This document shows, in pieces, positions 30,435 through 39,828 of a DNA stretch of 64,000 bases (its first letter is position 1; each line of letters opens with the position of its first letter). Both the position numbers and the translations under genes were made by a program. This DNA is from Planctomycetales bacterium 10988 (GTDB lineage Bacteria; Planctomycetota; Planctomycetia; Pirellulales; Pb10988). The stretch lies in contig CP043547.1 in the NCBI GenBank assembly GCA_009664345.1, positions 4,492,709 to 4,556,708 of the forward strand, in the 5' to 3' direction. Under the pieces are notes generated by a model. That model had not been told where the DNA came from. It ran no database searches and saw only the letters and a list, made by a program, of their open reading frames with translations.

Positions 30435-30448
30435 AAAAACTGCTTTTA
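30435..30448 (+). repeat. AAAAANYRCTTTTT palindrome, one end mismatch
   Basis: Core CTGC, last base A. It overlaps the TAA stop of the minus-strand kinase gene and pairs with the copy at 30393. Oriented on +. Confidence 0.65.
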
Positions 30449-33400
30449 GGGTGTCTCGAACTTCTCTGAGTTCGCGGCGTGTTCAGCACGGAAGTGAATC
30501 GCGGCATCAATGCCGTATCCTTCGGAGGCATCCCAAATATGGAGTGTTTGATTGTTGCCGAGGTTCGTCAGCCGATAGCCATCGGGACTCCAAAGGAGAT
30601 GCCCGGAGACGCCGCCGGGGCTATTGAGGGTCATGATCCCGCGACCGGTGGCCGGGTCCCAAAGACGGATCGCGCTGCGGTCCGAAGTCGCGATCCTCGT
30701 TCCTGAGGGGTTCCAGGCGATGCCGAAGACCGGCCCGATATGTCCTTCGATTACGCGATCGAGTTGGCCGGTAGGTGCATTCCAAAGTCGAGTCGTTCCA
30801 TCCGCACTGGCAGAGGCTAATTGCGTTCCTTCCATATTCCAGGTCAGTTGCGACACCCGGCGTTCATGCCCGACAAGCCGACGGTGCAACAGCAATTTTC
30901 CTTCCTCCAACTTCCACCATTTGATCAGACCGCTGTAACTCGCGGTGGCGAGAAATTTCCCGGTAGGGTCCCAAGCGAAGGAAGTGACGCCTTCGGCATC
31001 CGCTCTTACACTGGTAAGCAACTTTCCTTCTACCGGATCAAACAGACGAATGAAGCCCTGCTCACCCACGGTGGTCAGCCAATGTTGCGTGGGATGAAAT
31101 TCGAGTTCGGTCGCGATCACCTCCAAGGTAGTGACGGCCGTATCTCGCGCCAGGTCCCAGAGAATCACTTTGCCATCCATCGCGGCGGAGGCAAGCCATT
31201 CTTCTTCATGATCCCAAGCCACCGCGACGAGTTTCTCTTGGTGGCCGCGAAATGCCTTCACTTCCTTTTCAATGCGGACATCCCAAATCCGTACGGTGTG
31301 ATCGGTATCGGCGGTTGCGATTTGCTCTCCGCTCGGTCCCCAAGTGGCGTCTTTGACCATCCCTTGAATCCCTTCCAGGACTTGAATTTCGCGACCGTGT
31401 CGCAGGTCCCAGATCTTCACGGTGCCATCGCGACTGCCGGTGGCGAAGCGTTGTCCGTCGGGGCTCCAGGTGACGGAAACGACTTCGTCTTGATGCCCTC
31501 GGGCGATCCGTACGATCGATGTGTTTTCCAAATCCCAGACCTTGACCGTCCCGTCGGCGCTTGCCGCCGCGACATGGACTTCGGTCGGATGATAAGAAAT
31601 GTCGTGAATCGTCGCTAAGTCGCCTGGAACAATGCTGATGACTTCTTGACGGGTTTCATTCCAAAGTTGTAGCGTCCCATCGGGGCGAGTAAGGATTAAC
31701 TCTAGCCCTTCGGGCATCCACTTCATCGCCAGAATCTTTTCAGTTTGTTCGGTCAATTTTTCGAGAAGCTGCCCTGACTTGGCATCCCAAATCCAGACGC
31801 ACCACGTTTGCGTCTCATGGTCTTCGCCGACCGAGGCCAAACGGGTTCCGTCGGTACTCCAGGAAACAAAGGAAAGATCATCGGCGTGTGGGTCGAGTAC
31901 CGAGAGCTGCTTGCCGCTGGGGATTTCCCAAATCTTCACCGTTTTATCCCAACTCGCCGAGGCAATCCGTTTGGAATCCGGGGACCAGTCCAAATGCTCG
32001 ACCGAACCGAGATGAGCATCGATTTCCAAGGCGATCTCGCCAGTTTCTGCTTCCCATAAAAGGATCTGACTTCCTTGACTGGCCAACGTAAGGTACTTGC
32101 TATCGGGGGACCATACGAGGTCGCGGATGGCGACGAACTGATGCGCCGGGCCGTTCAGCCGTCGCAGAAACTCCCCGGTGTCCGCTTGCCAGAGAAACAC
32201 GTTTCCTTTCTCATCGGCGGAAGCGATTTGTTCCGCATTCGGACTCCACGCGACGGCGATGACATCGGCCTGATGGCTATCAATCGTAAAGAGGTCTTGC
32301 TGAGCCAGTCCATAAACATAGTGCCATTCCCAATCGCGAAGGTCTTCCTCGGCCTGGTCGAGCAGGTCACGCATCCGACTGAGATTGCTGGTGGCATAGT
32401 CGGAATAGGCCAAGTTGATCATCGCCAGATAAAGGTTCTCATTGGCCCGATTTCGTTCCTGAACCGCGATCTCTTTTTCGGCAAGCGTCTCCTGGTGGGC
32501 GAACGTGATCGCAACCGCGGAGAACAGAGAGATCAGCAGAATCACCATCCCGGCGATCCCCGTGGCGAAGACCCTCGCGCGATGGCGACGCATCCACCGG
32601 CCAAAGCGTTGTGGCCAAGTTTCTCGATGAACAAGGACCGGCTCGTCCGCCAGCCAGCGTTCGACTTCCTCGGCCAACTCCATTGCCGATTGATAACGAT
32701 CGTCCTGCCGTTGTGCCATCGCTTTGGTGCAGATCGCTTCCAAGGAAGGCGAGATCGTACTATCCAAACTGCGAACCCGTGGCGGAGGTTCGGAGCCGGA
32801 CCGCCAGAGGATCTCCATTAAGTTTTTGCCTTCATAAGGAGCTTTTCCCGTCAGAATACTAAACAGGATTCCGCCCAGCCCAAAAATATCGGTGCGGGCA
32901 TCGAGGCTGTTGATACGTCCTTTCGCTTGCTCCGGTGCCAAATAGCCTGGCGTGCCGATAATCGAACCATCGATAGTCCCCTCATGGGAAACATCCCCGG
33001 AGATGGAAACCTGCGGCAGTTCCGCTTGCGACTCTTCTTCCGCTTGATTCGCGTCTTCGAGGAGCCGGGCAATTCCCCAATCGACGAGCAGCACTTCGCC
33101 GTAATCCCCAAGGACGACGTTGTCCGGCTTGAGGTCGCGATGGAGGACCCCGCGGGAATGGGCATAAGCGACCGCATTGCACAAACTGACGAATGCCGTC
33201 AATAGATGCCGGAGTTCCAAACGATCGATTTTGGCAAACGGAAGCCCTGGCTCTGATCTCTTTGTCGAAGTCAGGTGATGCAGGGAACGGATTGCTTCAT
33301 ACAGATTTCGCCCTCGGATGAGCCGCATGGTATAGCAAGGCCGCTCCAAATCATCGATGTGCAGATCATAAATCGGCACGATATTCGGATGTTCGAGCTG

Positions 33401-34180
33401 CCCGGTGACTTGGGCTTCCTTCACCAGTTGAGCCGCGGTCGCCGGCCCGCGATAGGCAGCCGGTTGAATCTCCTTCAGGGCGACTTCTCGGTTTAATTTC
33501 GAATCCTCGACCAACCACACACGGCCTAGGCCCCCTTCCCCAAGCACCTTTTGCAAGGCATAGCGTTTCGGTTTCGCAGTCGGAGAAGCTTCCTTACGTG
33601 GAGCATTTTCTTCGCCGGAAGCTGTTCGATTGGTAGGAAAAGAGCGATCATCATGCGTCACGGCAGATGGGCGGATCTGCGTTGTGATCGGGCCAGGAGG
33701 TTGGACCAAAGTCGGCAGCGGTTCGAAGGGTTCGTTGACCCTTTTTGCCGGGGTTTCTCGGGCGGAGAGTTCTTCGAACACCGCTTGGATCGCTGGATAG
33801 GGAAGTTTTTCCCAAGCTTGACGAAGCTCAGGCCGGAGCGAGTTGGCAAGGGCAAAGAAAGGTTGACCGCTACAAGCCTCCAGATATTGACGGCGTTTTA
33901 AGTGGAATGCTTCCCCATTCCAGCGAGTGCCGCAGAGTTGCTTCAGCTCACTGAAAGCCGATGGAGGAGGCCGATCCGCGGTGTTCAACCATTGTTCCAA
34001 TAGAACAGTAAGTTCCGTCCCGGTTGACCAACCGAGCCGCTCGACGGCAGCCAAATCCAGGAGCTCTTCCAACCAGAGGATCGTTTCCGGAGGAGTTCGC
34101 TTCGCGGTAGAAGGTAGCGATGTAGGGATTCGTTCGGAGTCATTCGGTCCGTTTGTCGATGCCGGGGAACTGCGATCCAT
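30446..34180 (-). CDS. Ser/Thr protein kinase with transmembrane helix and WD40 propellers
   Basis: A 1,244-residue Hanks-type kinase. Residues 1-205 are a helical and low-complexity N-terminal region. The kinase domain (about 206-520) has the glycine loop VLGEGGLGRVW, catalytic Lys236 in VALKEI, HRDLKPDN near 348, DWG in VLLVDWGIA (DFG variant) and GTPGYLAPEQ. A basic stretch precedes one membrane helix near 540-562 (GMVILLISLFSAVAI), then a coiled linker and about fourteen WD40 blades (two seven-blade propellers) to the end. Blades such as VAWSPNAEQIASADEKG are regular. The likely topology puts the kinase in the cytoplasm and the propellers outside, as a sensor. Ligand and targets unknown. 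Planctomycetota have many such kinases. Confidence 0.92.
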   Translation of the reverse strand: MDRSSPASTNGPNDSERIPTSLPSTAKRTPPETILWLEELLDLAAVERLGWSTGTELTVLLEQWLNTADRPPPSAFSELKQLCGTRWNGEAFHLKRRQYLEACSGQPFFALANSLRPELRQAWEKLPYPAIQAVFEELSARETPAKRVNEPFEPLPTLVQPPGPITTQIRPSAVTHDDRSFPTNRTASGEENAPRKEASPTAKPKRYALQKVLGEGGLGRVWLVEDSKLNREVALKEIQPAAYRGPATAAQLVKEAQVTGQLEHPNIVPIYDLHIDDLERPCYTMRLIRGRNLYEAIRSLHHLTSTKRSEPGLPFAKIDRLELRHLLTAFVSLCNAVAYAHSRGVLHRDLKPDNVVLGDYGEVLLVDWGIARLLEDANQAEEESQAELPQVSISGDVSHEGTIDGSIIGTPGYLAPEQAKGRINSLDARTDIFGLGGILFSILTGKAPYEGKNLMEILWRSGSEPPPRVRSLDSTISPSLEAICTKAMAQRQDDRYQSAMELAEEVERWLADEPVLVHRETWPQRFGRWMRRHRARVFATGIAGMVILLISLFSAVAITFAHQETLAEKEIAVQERNRANENLYLAMINLAYSDYATSNLSRMRDLLDQAEEDLRDWEWHYVYGLAQQDLFTIDSHQADVIAVAWSPNAEQIASADEKGNVFLWQADTGEFLRRLNGPAHQFVAIRDLVWSPDSKYLTLASQGSQILLWEAETGEIALEIDAHLGSVEHLDWSPDSKRIASASWDKTVKIWEIPSGKQLSVLDPHADDLSFVSWSTDGTRLASVGEDHETQTWCVWIWDAKSGQLLEKLTEQTEKILAMKWMPEGLELILTRPDGTLQLWNETRQEVISIVPGDLATIHDISYHPTEVHVAAASADGTVKVWDLENTSIVRIARGHQDEVVSVTWSPDGQRFATGSRDGTVKIWDLRHGREIQVLEGIQGMVKDATWGPSGEQIATADTDHTVRIWDVRIEKEVKAFRGHQEKLVAVAWDHEEEWLASAAMDGKVILWDLARDTAVTTLEVIATELEFHPTQHWLTTVGEQGFIRLFDPVEGKLLTSVRADAEGVTSFAWDPTGKFLATASYSGLIKWWKLEEGKLLLHRRLVGHERRVSQLTWNMEGTQLASASADGTTRLWNAPTGQLDRVIEGHIGPVFGIAWNPSGTRIATSDRSAIRLWDPATGRGIMTLNSPGGVSGHLLWSPDGYRLTNLGNNQTLHIWDASEGYGIDAAIHFRAEHAANSEKFETP

Positions 34181-34237
34181 ACCTCACCATGAAATGAACT
34201 ACTTTCGGCAAGCTCCCCGTAACCAAAAGGGCCGCTC

Positions 34238-35266
34238 TTAGGTGCTTGCATAAATTAATAATACATCACCTTCTTGTACAATATACCCTTTCTGCTCCTT
34301 ATGTAGGAGATTTTGTGCTTTCATCTCTCGTTCACTGCCGACTCGCAAGAGGTCATCGACATTCATCACATCTGCCCGAATGAATCCGCGAGCCAAATCG
34401 GTATGAATCGCCCCGGCGGCTTCTTGGGCAGTATCGCCGCGATTGATGAGCCAAGTGCGGACTTCTTTTTCCCCGGCCGTGAAGAAGAGCATTTTGCCGG
34501 AAATCTTGAGAATCCCCTGCAAAAGTGGATCGCGGCTAAAGGTTTCGATCCCCATTTCCTCTTGGAAAACTTCGCGTTCGTCCTGCGGCATTCGCATCAA
34601 TTCCAATTCAATCCCCAATGGAGCGGCATAAATCGGAGCAGAATCGGTTGATTTTTCGGTAAAGCGTTCGGGCTTCGCTTCATCATCTGCCGTATTGACG
34701 ATGATGAACTTCGGCTTTTCGGTCAGAAGTTGAAAAGAGCGAGTCGCGCGGATCTGGTTCTCGTTGAGTTCCATCTCTCGCAGCATTTTCCCTTGTTCCA
34801 AATGGGCTTGGATCGGGAGCAAGGCTTCGAGGTCTTCTTTGTCTTGTTCTTGATTGGGACGCGGTTTCTTGACCAGGTCTTGCAGCTTTTCCACTCGACG
34901 CGTGACGAGATCGAGATCGGCAAAGAGGAGGTCTTCTTCAAAGCTCGCCAGTTCTTCCAACGGATCGGAGCCCGAAAAACCCGCGACGACCAAAACCAAG
35001 CAGCCGGATTCCCGCAAGGTCGCCAGGCGTTGGGCATTGTCTTCTTGATCGCGGCTGAGGCCCGGCGTATCCATCAACTCCAAGGAAGCTCTGGTGATTT
35101 TCTTCGCTTGATAAAGCTCTTGCAATTGATCCAATCGCGGCTCCGGCAGCACAGCCATGGCGGCTTGGCCGGTATGTGCGTTGGCCGGATTGGCCTCTTC
35201 TCCGGTCAGCAATTCAAAGAGGGTGCTCTTGCCTGAACCGGCATAGCCAACGATTCCAATCTTCAT
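34238..35266 (-). CDS. Divergent YchF-like GTPase/ATPase
   Basis: A 342-residue P-loop GTPase of the Obg-like YchF group. G1 is GYAGSGKS at residues 7-14, where canonical YchF has GxPNVGKS; G3 is DTPGL near 67; a NTADDE stretch stands where YchF has its nucleotide-base motif. The C-terminus matches the YchF TGS-like domain (AAGAIHTDLARGFIRADV, YIVQEGDVLLIY). Classical YchF binds ATP and ribosomes. The altered G1 and extra divergence suggest a second, specialised paralogue, with an authentic ychF elsewhere. The gene lies 57 bases upstream of the kinase gene on the same strand. Its own upstream region contains two G-run heptamer arrays. Confidence 0.82.
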   Translation of the reverse strand: MKIGIVGYAGSGKSTLFELLTGEEANPANAHTGQAAMAVLPEPRLDQLQELYQAKKITRASLELMDTPGLSRDQEDNAQRLATLRESGCLVLVVAGFSGSDPLEELASFEEDLLFADLDLVTRRVEKLQDLVKKPRPNQEQDKEDLEALLPIQAHLEQGKMLREMELNENQIRATRSFQLLTEKPKFIIVNTADDEAKPERFTEKSTDSAPIYAAPLGIELELMRMPQDEREVFQEEMGIETFSRDPLLQGILKISGKMLFFTAGEKEVRTWLINRGDTAQEAAGAIHTDLARGFIRADVMNVDDLLRVGSEREMKAQNLLHKEQKGYIVQEGDVLLIYAST

Positions 35267-35373
35267 GACGACTTCCTTCGCCTCCGATAGTCCAGGCCGA
35301 ATTCACCTGGGGGATCCTACGAAACTTGCAAAAGATGCAGTTTACTCAATCTTGGGGAAAGGGGCGAGGGGCA

Positions 35374-35456
35374 GGGGAGTGGGGAGTGGGGAGTGGGGAG
35401 TGGGGAGTGGGGAGTGGGGAGTGGGGAGTGGGGAGTGGGGAGTGGGGAGTGGGGAG
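35374..35456 (+). repeat. Tandem heptamer array GGGGAGT, about 12 copies
   Basis: Eleven complete, identical 7-base units followed by GGGGAG. Each unit has a run of four G's on +, so the array can form many G-quadruplexes on that strand. Confidence 0.95.
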
Positions 35457-35534
35457 GTGAACGTTTGTTGGCGGGTGAGTGTTATTGAAATCGGGAGGTT
35501 GAAGGGAATTTGGTGAAGAAAGTGCCAAACTTGT

Positions 35535-35604
35535 CCCCGAACCCCGAACCCCGAACCCCGAACCCCGAACCCCGAACCCCGAACCCCGAACCCCGAACCC
35601 CGAA
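35535..35604 (-). repeat. Tandem heptamer array CCCCGAA, 10 copies
   Basis: Ten identical 7-base units, 78 bases from the GGGGAGT array. The G-run (TTCGGGG) is on -, opposite to the first array. Confidence 0.95.
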
Positions 35605-35653
35605 CCGTAACCCTGGAGTTCGCGAAGCCCCGTCAAAGCCATTCTTTCTCGCG

Positions 35654-38278
35654 CTACAACACATCACTCGTTTGAGCTGTTTTGGCTCGGCTGATGGACT
35701 GAATCGCGGATTGCGTATCGCAGATAACGAGTTGGTTCTTCGATTCGAAGATTTTCCCGAACGGCCCCGCGAGAATCGCAGGTAAGAAAACCAAATCCCC
35801 AAGCAAGGCAGCGAACAGCAGCACACACATCAGAATTCCGAACTGCGAGACCGGGGCAAAGGAGCTAAAGCCCATCATCAGCATCCCGAGGCCGGCAATC
35901 GTTGTGGTTTGGGTCATCGCGCGGGCACATTGCACGTAAGCGATTTGAATGGCACTTTGACGGGACTCTCCGGCGACGAGTGCCCGATGGAACCATGTCA
36001 AGAAGTGAAGGGTGTCGTCCACCGCGATTCCCATCGCCACACTGGCGGTCATCATGGAACCGATGTCGATCTTGATGCCCAGCCAACCCATGCTGCCGAA
36101 AATCAACACGGCGGGAAAGATATTCGGAATCATGATCAGCAGGCCGGCACCCAGTCGCCGTAACATGATCATCATCACAATTGCAATGAGACCAAAAGCG
36201 AGAATGAAACTCTCGTAAAGCCCTTTGAGCAATTCCGTGGAGACGCGGAAGAAAAGCGGATCGATCCCAGTTACCACAAACCGAATGTCTTTATACTCAT
36301 CAATATAAGAGTGAATTCGCTCATCGACTTTTGCGAGAAAGACGGCATAGTCCGAGTCGCTTAGCTCTGGGGCACGAGCGCTGATTCGCCAGAGTTCGTC
36401 ATCTCCATCGGTGGCGAGAAAGTGTTCATCCACAAAGTGAGAACGGTTCTCTTCGAGGCGTTCCCGAAAGACCCCGCGTTCGGCTTGCTCCTGATTGCGA
36501 ATCCCTGCCAAGCGGGCAAGAGGGCCGAAGAGGCGACCGCCGCCGCGTGGGGCACTTGACGGGGTTTCCTGCTCATTTTCCTTCGCTTCTTCACTCCCAG
36601 GAAGCGGGGGAACTAAGGAAACAGCGGACATCGCATAGCCGATTCGGTCCAGCTCTTTCAGATCGACTTGAATTTTTTGGATCAGCTCCATCCGTTCGAA
36701 CATATCTTGCTCGTTTTCCGGGCCGAACTTCAAGATAATTTCAATCGGCACAATTGGGCCAAGGTTCTCTTGCAGCCAGTAGGTATCTTGGACGAGTTTG
36801 TTTTCTTTGGCAAAGAAGTTCAGGGGTTCCACGTCGCTCTTGATGAGGCTGATGCCGATCCCCATGAAGGCCATGAGAAAGATGCCTAACATCGCAAAGA
36901 GGGCATGACGGTGAACAATTCCCGCGGCAAAGCGACTTAACAGGCGATCAATGGGGTGGCGATCCGGAGCAGCGGCATTTTTTGCATGTCCAAGCGAAAT
37001 TTCCGAACGGGTTCCGCGTTTCTTCTTTTTCTTGGCAGGAGCCGCCAGGGCTTCCACATCAGGGTCATCTTGATAATCGGGTTCGCCCTCGATTTCAGAA
37101 TCCGAGTCCGTTTCTGAATCAGGTTCCTCGTCGCTATCCCCGTCTTTGCTCTTCTGAGCTTCCAATTCCTCGGGCAGAAGTTCGCCAGAGTGTCGGAATC
37201 GAAGGGGAAAGAGTTCCAACAAGCAAGGCAGCAAGAGAAAAAGCATGACCAAGCTAAGCATCAGTCCAATGGCGGAATAAAGCCCAAACATTTTCACCGG
37301 GATGATGTCGCTGACAAGTAACGAGCCGAGGCCAATCGCGGTTGTTCCTGCCGAAAGGGCACAAGGAGCCCAACCGATATTCACCGCTTGCACGACCGCA
37401 TGCGCACGCCCAACGATATCGATCGAGTCTCGATAATAATTCGCTAAGTGAATGGCGGAGGCCAGCGCGAGCACACCGACTAGAATCGGCATGACCACCA
37501 AGACGAGGTTCATCTCGCTCCCGGTATAATAGACCGTCGCCACCCCGAGACCCGCACAAAAGAGGGCCGTTCCAAAAACAATCCCGATTAGCCGCCAGCT
37601 TCTTAGGCTCCACGCGGCAATGACAAAGGCCGTTAACCAAGCTAAAACAAACCATTTGCGAATTGCGGCACGACTTTCTTTATCCACCTCGGCATTGGTG
37701 GCAGGCTCACCGGCGATATGCAATTGATCCGAGGTTAGATCGAGAACTTCCTTGGCCACCTCTTCCAGGTGGTGAACGGCTTCTTCCCGCTCTTCATTTC
37801 CTTTTTCGGTAAAGTTCACCAGGAGAGCAGTTTGCGCATGGTCGGGACCGACAAGAACCCCTTCGAGTCGTTTAAGGGATTGTTCTTTAGAAAGTTTAAA
37901 CGGCGGCCCCATCAAGGTATCGAGAACCTCGGTACCATTCCGAACTCGCTCGATCCAGCCGGTATCGTCTTTACGAAAGGCATCGGTAAGCTCGGCCACC
38001 CTGGGGTCATCGATCGTGGCTTTTTTCCAGCTCAAAATCACGGTTTCGTCGGTAACGAACTGTTCGACGAACCATTCATATTCGATCGTTTCTTGAGTTC
38101 CCGGTGGTAGCCATTGCCGAATATTGTTGTTGGCTTCCATCATTGCCCTGACCACTCCAAACAGCATCGGAGGAACCAGGCAAACGGCGATTAGCACAAT
38201 CAAGCGGCTGTTGCGAGCATACCAAGAGCGATAATCCCCATCGAGTGCGGAATCGGTGGCATGCGATGAATCTGACAT
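35654..38278 (-). CDS. RND-superfamily (MMPL/hydrophobe) exporter
   Basis: An 874-residue inner-membrane transporter, read from ATG 38278 (MSDSSHATDS); the frame is open 24 residues further upstream. It has the RND duplication: a single N-terminal helix, a large extracytoplasmic loop, a five-helix bundle (LVVMPILVGVLALASAIHLANYY), an acidic cytoplasmic stretch rich in Asp/Glu near 400-440 with a KKKKKRG run, then the same layout repeated with MIMLRRLGAGLLIMIPNIFP. The length and the SSD-like helices fit the HAE2/MMPL branch that moves lipids or hydrophobic compounds with proton motive force. No membrane-fusion or outer-membrane partner is adjacent. Substrate unknown. Confidence 0.86.
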   Translation of the reverse strand: MSDSSHATDSALDGDYRSWYARNSRLIVLIAVCLVPPMLFGVVRAMMEANNNIRQWLPPGTQETIEYEWFVEQFVTDETVILSWKKATIDDPRVAELTDAFRKDDTGWIERVRNGTEVLDTLMGPPFKLSKEQSLKRLEGVLVGPDHAQTALLVNFTEKGNEEREEAVHHLEEVAKEVLDLTSDQLHIAGEPATNAEVDKESRAAIRKWFVLAWLTAFVIAAWSLRSWRLIGIVFGTALFCAGLGVATVYYTGSEMNLVLVVMPILVGVLALASAIHLANYYRDSIDIVGRAHAVVQAVNIGWAPCALSAGTTAIGLGSLLVSDIIPVKMFGLYSAIGLMLSLVMLFLLLPCLLELFPLRFRHSGELLPEELEAQKSKDGDSDEEPDSETDSDSEIEGEPDYQDDPDVEALAAPAKKKKKRGTRSEISLGHAKNAAAPDRHPIDRLLSRFAAGIVHRHALFAMLGIFLMAFMGIGISLIKSDVEPLNFFAKENKLVQDTYWLQENLGPIVPIEIILKFGPENEQDMFERMELIQKIQVDLKELDRIGYAMSAVSLVPPLPGSEEAKENEQETPSSAPRGGGRLFGPLARLAGIRNQEQAERGVFRERLEENRSHFVDEHFLATDGDDELWRISARAPELSDSDYAVFLAKVDERIHSYIDEYKDIRFVVTGIDPLFFRVSTELLKGLYESFILAFGLIAIVMMIMLRRLGAGLLIMIPNIFPAVLIFGSMGWLGIKIDIGSMMTASVAMGIAVDDTLHFLTWFHRALVAGESRQSAIQIAYVQCARAMTQTTTIAGLGMLMMGFSSFAPVSQFGILMCVLLFAALLGDLVFLPAILAGPFGKIFESKNQLVICDTQSAIQSISRAKTAQTSDVL

Positions 38279-38781
38279 AGTGGAAGATCTATCCCTGACT
38301 AATTGTGGAGCGGCTGCCGGACGCTTTCGCATTCCCACCAGAAGATGCAACCGAAAGTACGATTAGGGAAAATACCGGCACGAAACGCAAAGGCATTTAT
38401 CACCCGGGGGCAGGTCTTTCGTCTCTAGCAACCCATCCGTATCATACGGAGTTCTTCAAGAGCCTGCTTTCGTCAAAAATTTGAAAGCTCAAAATCACTC
38501 AAAGATCGCTTCTTGATCGCTGTAGGGGAATTATTGGAAAAAGCGAAGGTTGGTAGGAATTGGTGTGATTATAAGGAGGACATCGAAAGATGGCTAGACC
38601 CTGTCGGCTGGAAGCGAAAGGGGGAATCGTGACAGGGTCTCAAACAAAAGGAGCCATCGTTACCTGAGAGCAGAGTTCGCCTCGCGTCCCAAAATCCTCA
38701 CATGCCTAAGCAACCGGGGAGAGGAGGAAGCATGGGGCTCCCTCTCTCCCAAGTTGTAGTTGTACTTCAAGAACGGGCGAA
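38279..38781. other. Gap between floA and the RND gene, with two hairpins
   Basis: About 500 bases downstream of floA on the - strand. It holds a GGGAGAG/CTCTCCC hairpin at about 38718-38750 and a 10-base perfect inverted repeat at 38596-38640 (AGACCCTGTC and GACAGGGTCT, 25-base loop). Neither has a T tail. No gene is supported. Confidence 0.45.
38596..38640. repeat. 10-base perfect inverted repeat, 25-base loop
   Basis: Arms at 38596-38605 and 38631-38640 would fold into a stable hairpin in either transcript. It is 140 bases past the floA stop, too far for a typical terminator and without a T run. Confidence 0.6.
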
Positions 38782-39828
38782 TTAGGCGGTGCCGTTTTCA
38801 GAACCGTTGGAGGATTCCGAAAGGGTAATATTTCCCTGGCGGAAGGCAGCAGCCATCGCCTTGGGTACTTCGGCTTCGGCCAAGACCACCTTCGAACGGT
38901 TGATTGCGACCTGGGCTTTCATTTCTTGTTCATGAGCAATCGCCTCCGCGCGACGGCGTTCGGCTTGTGCCCGTGCCACGCGGACATCGGCTTCGGCTTG
39001 ATCCGTTCGCAAGCGGGCCCCGATGTTCTCTCCGACATCAATATCGGCAATGTCAATCGAAACAATTTCGAAAGCGGTTTGCGAATCCAAGCCACGATCG
39101 AGCACCGCACGGGAGATTCGATCTGGATTCTCCATCACTTGCAAGTGGCTATCCGCCGAACCGATGGAAGTAATGATCCCTTCACCCACCCGAGCGATGA
39201 CGGTATCTTCAGTCGCCCCGCCGATCAACTGATCCAGGTTCGTGCGAACAGTCACGCGGGTACGGACTTTCAATTCCACCCCGTTGCGGGCGATGGCACT
39301 CAAGAAGCGTTTGCTGCTGCGAGAGGGGTCCGGGCAGTTGATCACTTTTGGGTGAACGCTGGTACGAACGGCTTCCAGCACATCCCGACCGGCCAAGTCA
39401 ATCGCGGCGGCCCGGTCGAAGTCGAGGGGAATATTCGCCCGGTGAGCGGCAATAATGGCTTGAATGACCCGCGGCACATTTCCGCCGGCCAAATAGTGGG
39501 CTTCAAGACGCCGGGTACTGAGATTCGTATGGCTGGAAACTCCCGCTTGCAGGGCCATAATCCGGGCTTGAATGATCACCCGACTGTTGACCCGACGCAG
39601 GCTCATTCCGATTAAATTGAGAAAGCCGACATAGGCTCCACTCATATAGGCTTGAAACCAAAGGTTGCCGAAGCTTGCAATTAAAAACAGCCCGACCAAA
39701 CCCACCAGGACCGCAATCCCGATCAGAATGACAATAATAATGGGCAGCAAACTGAACCCGTCGTCTCCTCCAAACTGAGCAAACAGCGTCGAAGACCAAT
39801 GAAGTACAGGTGGCAACAATTCAAACAT
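38782..39828 (-). CDS. floA: Flotillin-like protein FloA
   Basis: A 348-residue flotillin-like membrane protein. A strongly hydrophobic segment near residues 25-55 ([20 protein letters not shown]) forms the membrane hairpin, then the SPFH-like region ([58 protein letters not shown]), and a coiled region with [20 protein letters not shown] typical of FloA. Length and motifs match bacterial FloA, which organises functional membrane microdomains. Bacterial floA often pairs with an NfeD gene; none is seen next to it here. The gene looks monocistronic. A hairpin without T run lies downstream. Confidence 0.93.

Follow-up and report, generated by a model that had tools for sequence, protein, structure and literature searches.

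Facing quadruplex-capable heptamer repeats located just after the stop codon of an MMPL-family transporter gene in a planctomycete

The short tandemly repeated repetitive (STRR) sequences of heterocystous cyanobacteria are heptamer tandem repeats occurring in intergenic gaps. The present study deals with a pair of heptamer arrays carried by Planctomycetales bacterium 10988, which was found in a 64,000-nucleotide stretch of contig CP043547.1 (assembly GCA_009664345.1, positions 4,492,709 to 4,556,708), this whole stretch being referred to below as the window. The two arrays lie in the gap between the genes encoding an MMPL-family transporter and a YchF-like GTPase. They face each other with their G-runs on opposite strands just after the MMPL stop codon, and we tentatively propose that they might constitute a passive boundary at the 3' end of the MMPL transcript.

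Among the repeats described so far, as documented in the parts of the papers drawn on here, the closest are the GGGAATC repeats of Xanthomonas and the GGGGA(C/T)T repeats of Nostoc, the place of which relative to open reading frames (ORFs) has been described (Rehm et al. 2015, PMC4692102). The Nostoc units GGGGACT and GGGGATT form very stable quadruplexes in vitro, and the repeats are dispersed in many copies in the three genomes studied (PMC4692102). X. campestris has 70 facing pairs, X. axonopodis 75 and Nostoc few, and the copies located upstream of genes prefer the non-coding strand at 0-50 bases from the start codon, which is a preference and not a rule; in the parts of that paper used here, no role was found for these repeats (PMC4692102). 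The TAACTGA heptamer direct repeats of Beggiatoaceae and cyanobacteria occur mostly just upstream of start codons (PMC4679880). Over-represented G-patterns in the planctomycete Isosphaera (PMC4060949) and heptamer-derived satellites (PMC6749651) have also been reported. A search of the open-access literature, subscription journals being outside its scope, yielded no other account of planctomycete or Pirellulales versions or of facing heptamer pairs.

The repeat pair and the genes around it

Heptamer repeats of this kind are defined as tandem 7-base units having a run of 3-4 G, with four or more such tracts. Both arrays consist of error-free units: array 1 contains 12 GGGG tracts on the + strand and array 2 contains 10 on the - strand, the two arms being convergent (Table 1). 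The sequence-only reading of this DNA had described two perfect opposite-strand arrays 78 bases apart, likened them to the heptamer repeats of cyanobacteria and attributed to them the potential to form quadruplexes on both strands. The arrays were recovered exactly as described by Tandem Repeats Finder (TRF) and by an exact scan, the likeness is in line with the Nostoc units GGGGA(C/T)T (PMC4692102), and the quadruplex potential on both strands is likewise supported. A degenerate leader of array 1 had been overlooked. The exact scan of the window, which covered perfect tandems of at least 3 units with periods of 4-24, detected only GTGG x3 in addition to the two arrays and their 14/21-base multiples. 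The perfect identity of the units is consistent with a recent expansion by slippage.

The G-tracts of array 2 are on the same strand as the MMPL and YchF-like genes, i.e., the coding strand, and the MMPL stop codon precedes this array by 47 bases in the direction of transcription, while those of array 1 are on the non-coding strand, about 107 bases from the YchF-like start codon. Read along the minus strand, the order is therefore the MMPL stop codon, 47 bases, the GGGGTTC repeats, the spacer, the ACTCCCC repeats, about 107 bases and the YchF start codon. No Rfam match was obtained at E values up to 1 within positions 34000-37000, and a search for copies on plasmids gave no match. Further out, a gene encoding a serine/threonine kinase fused to WD40 repeats (30446-34180) lies downstream of the YchF-like gene, and a FloA-like gene is present at 38782-39828.

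Table 1. Features of the repeat pair and of the two flanking genes (positions in the window)
Feature	Positions	Strand	Basis or remark
Degenerate leader of array 1, GGGGAAA GGGGCGA GGGG	35354..35371	+	Sequence inspection
Array 1, (GGGGAGT) x11.9, 100% match, period 7	35374..35456	+ (G-tracts)	TRF and exact scan
Spacer, 78 bases	35457..35534		Between array 1 and array 2
Array 2, (CCCCGAA) x10.3 on +, i.e. GGGGTTC on -, 100% match, period 7	35535..35606	- (G-tracts)	TRF and exact scan
MMPL-family transporter gene	35654..38350	-	
YchF-like GTPase gene, MMR_HSR1 and YchF-GTPase_C	34238..35266	-	

In the whole genome, which consists of a single 6.65-Mb contig, arrays of at least 4 GGGGNNN units are present at two loci only. 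The second locus is a GGGGCTA array (x8-9) located at G000:C1:1888928 (L010:1496-1701), G000 being the handle of this genome; it starts about 15 bases past the stop codon of a transposase gene and faces, across a gap of about 100 bases, a right arm of degenerate GGGGCGA-like heptamers on the other strand. The latter arm lies directly after the stop codon of proS, and proS and the transposase gene, both of which were named from our reading of the translations, run toward each other. Since both loci have facing arms beside stop codons, all the arrays of this length in the genome belong to facing pairs located at stop codons.

Facing pairs in related and distant genomes

The relatives compared belong to the same order as the host, most likely Pirellulales, and none of them to its family or genus. 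Four-tract GGGG arrays with periods of 6, 7 and 8 were counted in 146 genomes of the order, poly-G being excluded. Those of period 7 occurred in 53 genomes (1,243 match rows), as compared with 17 (61 rows) in the case of period 6 and 18 (40 rows) in that of period 8: this order prefers period 7 for its GGGG arrays. The search of the genome for similar arrays, which the sequence-only reading had suggested, yielded one further locus; some of the relatives carry many copies, versus two loci here. Long poly-G runs were observed at five loci of draft genomes (L033, L039, L046, L049, and L050), mostly at contig ends, and are probably sequencing or assembly artefacts.

Pairs with three units in each arm were found in the facing arrangement in 17 of 296 genomes of the order (62 rows), whereas the control, which was the same pattern read backwards, i.e., in back-to-back order, was found in 2 of 296 (4 rows). 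In the four genomes G000, G023, G007, and G047 combined, there were 43 facing rows versus 1 back-to-back row. Two genomes of a single genus (g81), G132 and G242, carry arrays placed back to back rather than facing, as do G019 and G020.

A scan of named genomes provided at least 119 facing-pair stretches, several of them from the same genome, belonging to cyanobacteria, planctomycetes, xanthomonads, Chloroflexi, Gemmatimonadota, Acidobacteria, and others; this set is neither a random nor a full sample, and the taxon groups were assigned by hand from the record titles. Arms were counted as lying after a stop codon when they started -10 to 60 bases from it and the open run, on the G-rich strand, comprised at least 150 codons. 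Among the 119 matches listed, this was the case of 85 of the 238 arms, and 71 of the pairs had at least one such arm; when the loop side of the arms was examined in the same way the count was 15 of 238, and the proportion at random places was 0.059. The window pair, with its 47 bases, and the other locus of the genome both fit this placement. A cruder tally of gene orientations by ORF finder (80 pairs: 20 tandem, 8 convergent, 9 divergent, 13 at edges, and 30 inside ORFs) was dropped because pairs inside ORFs could not be told apart from over-long frames in this high-G+C DNA.

The two arms have at least one unit in common in 66 of these 119 listed pairs, versus 14.4 in shuffles. Broken down by group, again among the matches listed, this holds for 19 of 21 planctomycete pairs (4.6 shuffled), 8 of 9 xanthomonad pairs (1.9) and 26 of 39 pairs from other taxa (5.0), and for 13 of 50 cyanobacterial pairs, which is the level expected by chance (11.8). 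Since a single genome may favour one unit, the test was repeated within genomes, where common units were found in 9 of 9 pairs in G023 (4.67 shuffled; reached by 13 of 5,000 shuffles) and in 6 of 14 in G007 (3.30 shuffled; reached by 393 of 5,000). The window pair, in which AGT is associated with TTC, belongs to the minority of planctomycete pairs having unlike arms, and resembles those of L179 (TTC with AGA) and G063 (ATC, TTC, then ACT). In cyanobacteria, some unlike arms recur, GGGGCAT being found opposite GGGGACT, GGGGATT, GGGGAGT, or GGGGTTA (L135, L136, L140, L141, L157, and L185).

Predicted folding, a possible transcript boundary, and rival explanations

The transcript of the minus-strand genes would meet the G-rich array first and the C-rich array second, so that the RNA could fold either as a quadruplex or as an extended GGGG:CCCC hairpin with interruptions. 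The 263-nt minus-strand RNA is predicted to fold at -92.5 kcal/mol (z -1.96) with GGGG:CCCC steps and three-base internal loops, and the single-stranded DNA gives a z of -1.55; these values are modest because the composition alone folds well. When a quadruplex term is included, a longer minus-strand RNA is predicted to remain a hairpin (-143.9 both ways), and the plus-strand RNA to favour quadruplexes (-159.9 vs. -133.7). The window spacer shows no folding beyond chance (z 0.79 on the + strand and -0.4 on the - strand). A terminator hairpin within the spacer was also considered: visual inspection suggested one in some relatives, yet it does not hold for the class, and the consensus scan gave none at the window locus.

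Replication slippage of the 7-base units probably lengthened both arrays. Should the pair fold in the cell, its most likely effect, if any, would be that of a passive boundary at the 3' end of the MMPL transcript, slowing the polymerase or protecting the 3' end, and separating this transcript from the YchF-like gene. The recurring placement after stop codons, together with the predicted fold, leads us to favour a passive structure of this kind, as a tentative reading to which we would give somewhat less than an even chance.

Several points weigh against it. The tolerance of repeats in the gaps at gene ends would result in an identical placement. The hairpin exceeds chance by a modest margin only, since shuffled sequences folded as well in 6 of 200 cases for RNA and in 14 of 200 for DNA, and its arms are mismatched here in the three variable bases. 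Consensus scans detected no intrinsic terminator (a G+C hairpin and a T run) in 35200-35720 and no sigma-70-like promoter in the gap. Taken together, the spacers of 75 of the 80 pairs, the 5 shorter than 25 bases being excluded, are not structured (median z -0.03; 9 of 75 below -2). The facing bias is weaker with a looser two-unit pattern (213 facing vs. 76 back-to-back rows in 57 genomes, counts partly inflated by poly-G contig ends, on account of which a non-G third loop base was demanded in later patterns), and it is reversed in G019 (3 facing, 22 back-to-back) and G020 (1 and 7). As regards single arrays, 40 of which were analyzed in the order (most of them without a close partner and a few being the same array twice; open run of at least 100 codons), 16 lie after a sense stop codon and 12 the opposite way, the proportion at random being 0.133; a facing C-heptamer partner was present within 150 bases in 5 cases and a back-to-back one in 0. 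The strand rule is therefore weak in single arrays and clear in pairs.

That the pair is instead a functionless product of slippage, surviving after stop codons where it does least harm, with the facing arrangement arising from fold-back repair between the arms, is nearly as likely as a passive structure at the transcript end. The arrays are scattered and not retained at orthologous places, the MMPL-YchF junction recurs at none of the other loci compared, no role emerges from the parts of Rehm et al. 2015 used here (PMC4692102), and the units common to both arms in 19 of the 21 listed planctomycete pairs and in 9 of 9 in G023 are what copying from arm to arm would give. This explanation needs an additional reason, however, for the excess of facing over back-to-back pairs and for the tight spacing from stop codons on the G-rich strand; and since cyanobacterial arms match no more than chance would predict (13 of 50 vs. 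11.8 among the matches listed), arm-to-arm copying is not general.

It is improbable that the arrays are the ends of a small mobile element or of an inverted-repeat element resembling the repetitive extragenic palindromic (REP) sequences. Their dispersal, their proximity to stop codons and their inverted arms would fit such an origin, and several pair spacers in G023 carry, as judged by eye, a common ACGCGCAAGCG motif, which in some cases is present on either side in inverted orientation; but the window spacer is devoid of ACGCGCAAGCG and the unit sequences vary between sites. An origin involving REP-associated tyrosine transposases (RAYT) was rejected, as the genome gave 0 matches to PF01797 (Y1_Tnp).

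The slippage-driven on/off switch of the YchF-like gene put forward in the sequence-only reading is highly improbable: slippage readily affects long perfect arrays, and about 107 bases separate the start codon from array 1, which is upstream of it and has its G-tracts on the template strand, but the arrays track the stop codon of the upstream gene, the consensus scan gave no promoter-like site near the array, and in the 29 other YchF homologue neighbourhoods MMPL is adjacent in none and a four-tract array is present at the gene start in one (L068), so that, the position after a stop codon being the usual place of pairs and no homologue sharing the junction, such a switch is not supported.

Comparison with described heptamer repeats

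The facing pairs of G-heptamers might also form a single class of 3'-end elements common to many phyla, folding as a quadruplex or a G/C hairpin directly after stop codons, acting as two-way transcript boundaries and divided into two subclasses, one with matched arms (planctomycetes, xanthomonads, and others) and the other with unlike arms (cyanobacteria and the window locus), although we consider this rather unlikely. The rules of facing arrangement and placement after stop codons make the role of heptamer repeats directly testable, by determining whether transcripts end or pause at the pairs.

As far as the parts of the papers used here allow comparison, the repeats of Nostoc and Xanthomonas (PMC4692102) and the window pair are all heptamer tandems with G-runs, and facing pairs occur in both cases. 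The window pair differs in its planctomycete host, in its units, GGGGAGT and GGGGTTC, and in its unlike arms, and the genome carries two loci in 6.65 Mb instead of many copies. Array 1 follows the preference for the non-coding strand described by Rehm et al. 2015, but is located at about 107 bases from the start codon and not at 0-50. The TAACTGA repeats are likewise intergenic heptamer direct repeats occurring in distant phyla, but they are without G-tracts, and no facing pairs are described in the part of the paper used (PMC4679880). The window pair is thus an addition to a known kind, that of the G-quadruplex-capable heptamer repeats, from the described members of which it differs in its units, its arms, and its planctomycete host.
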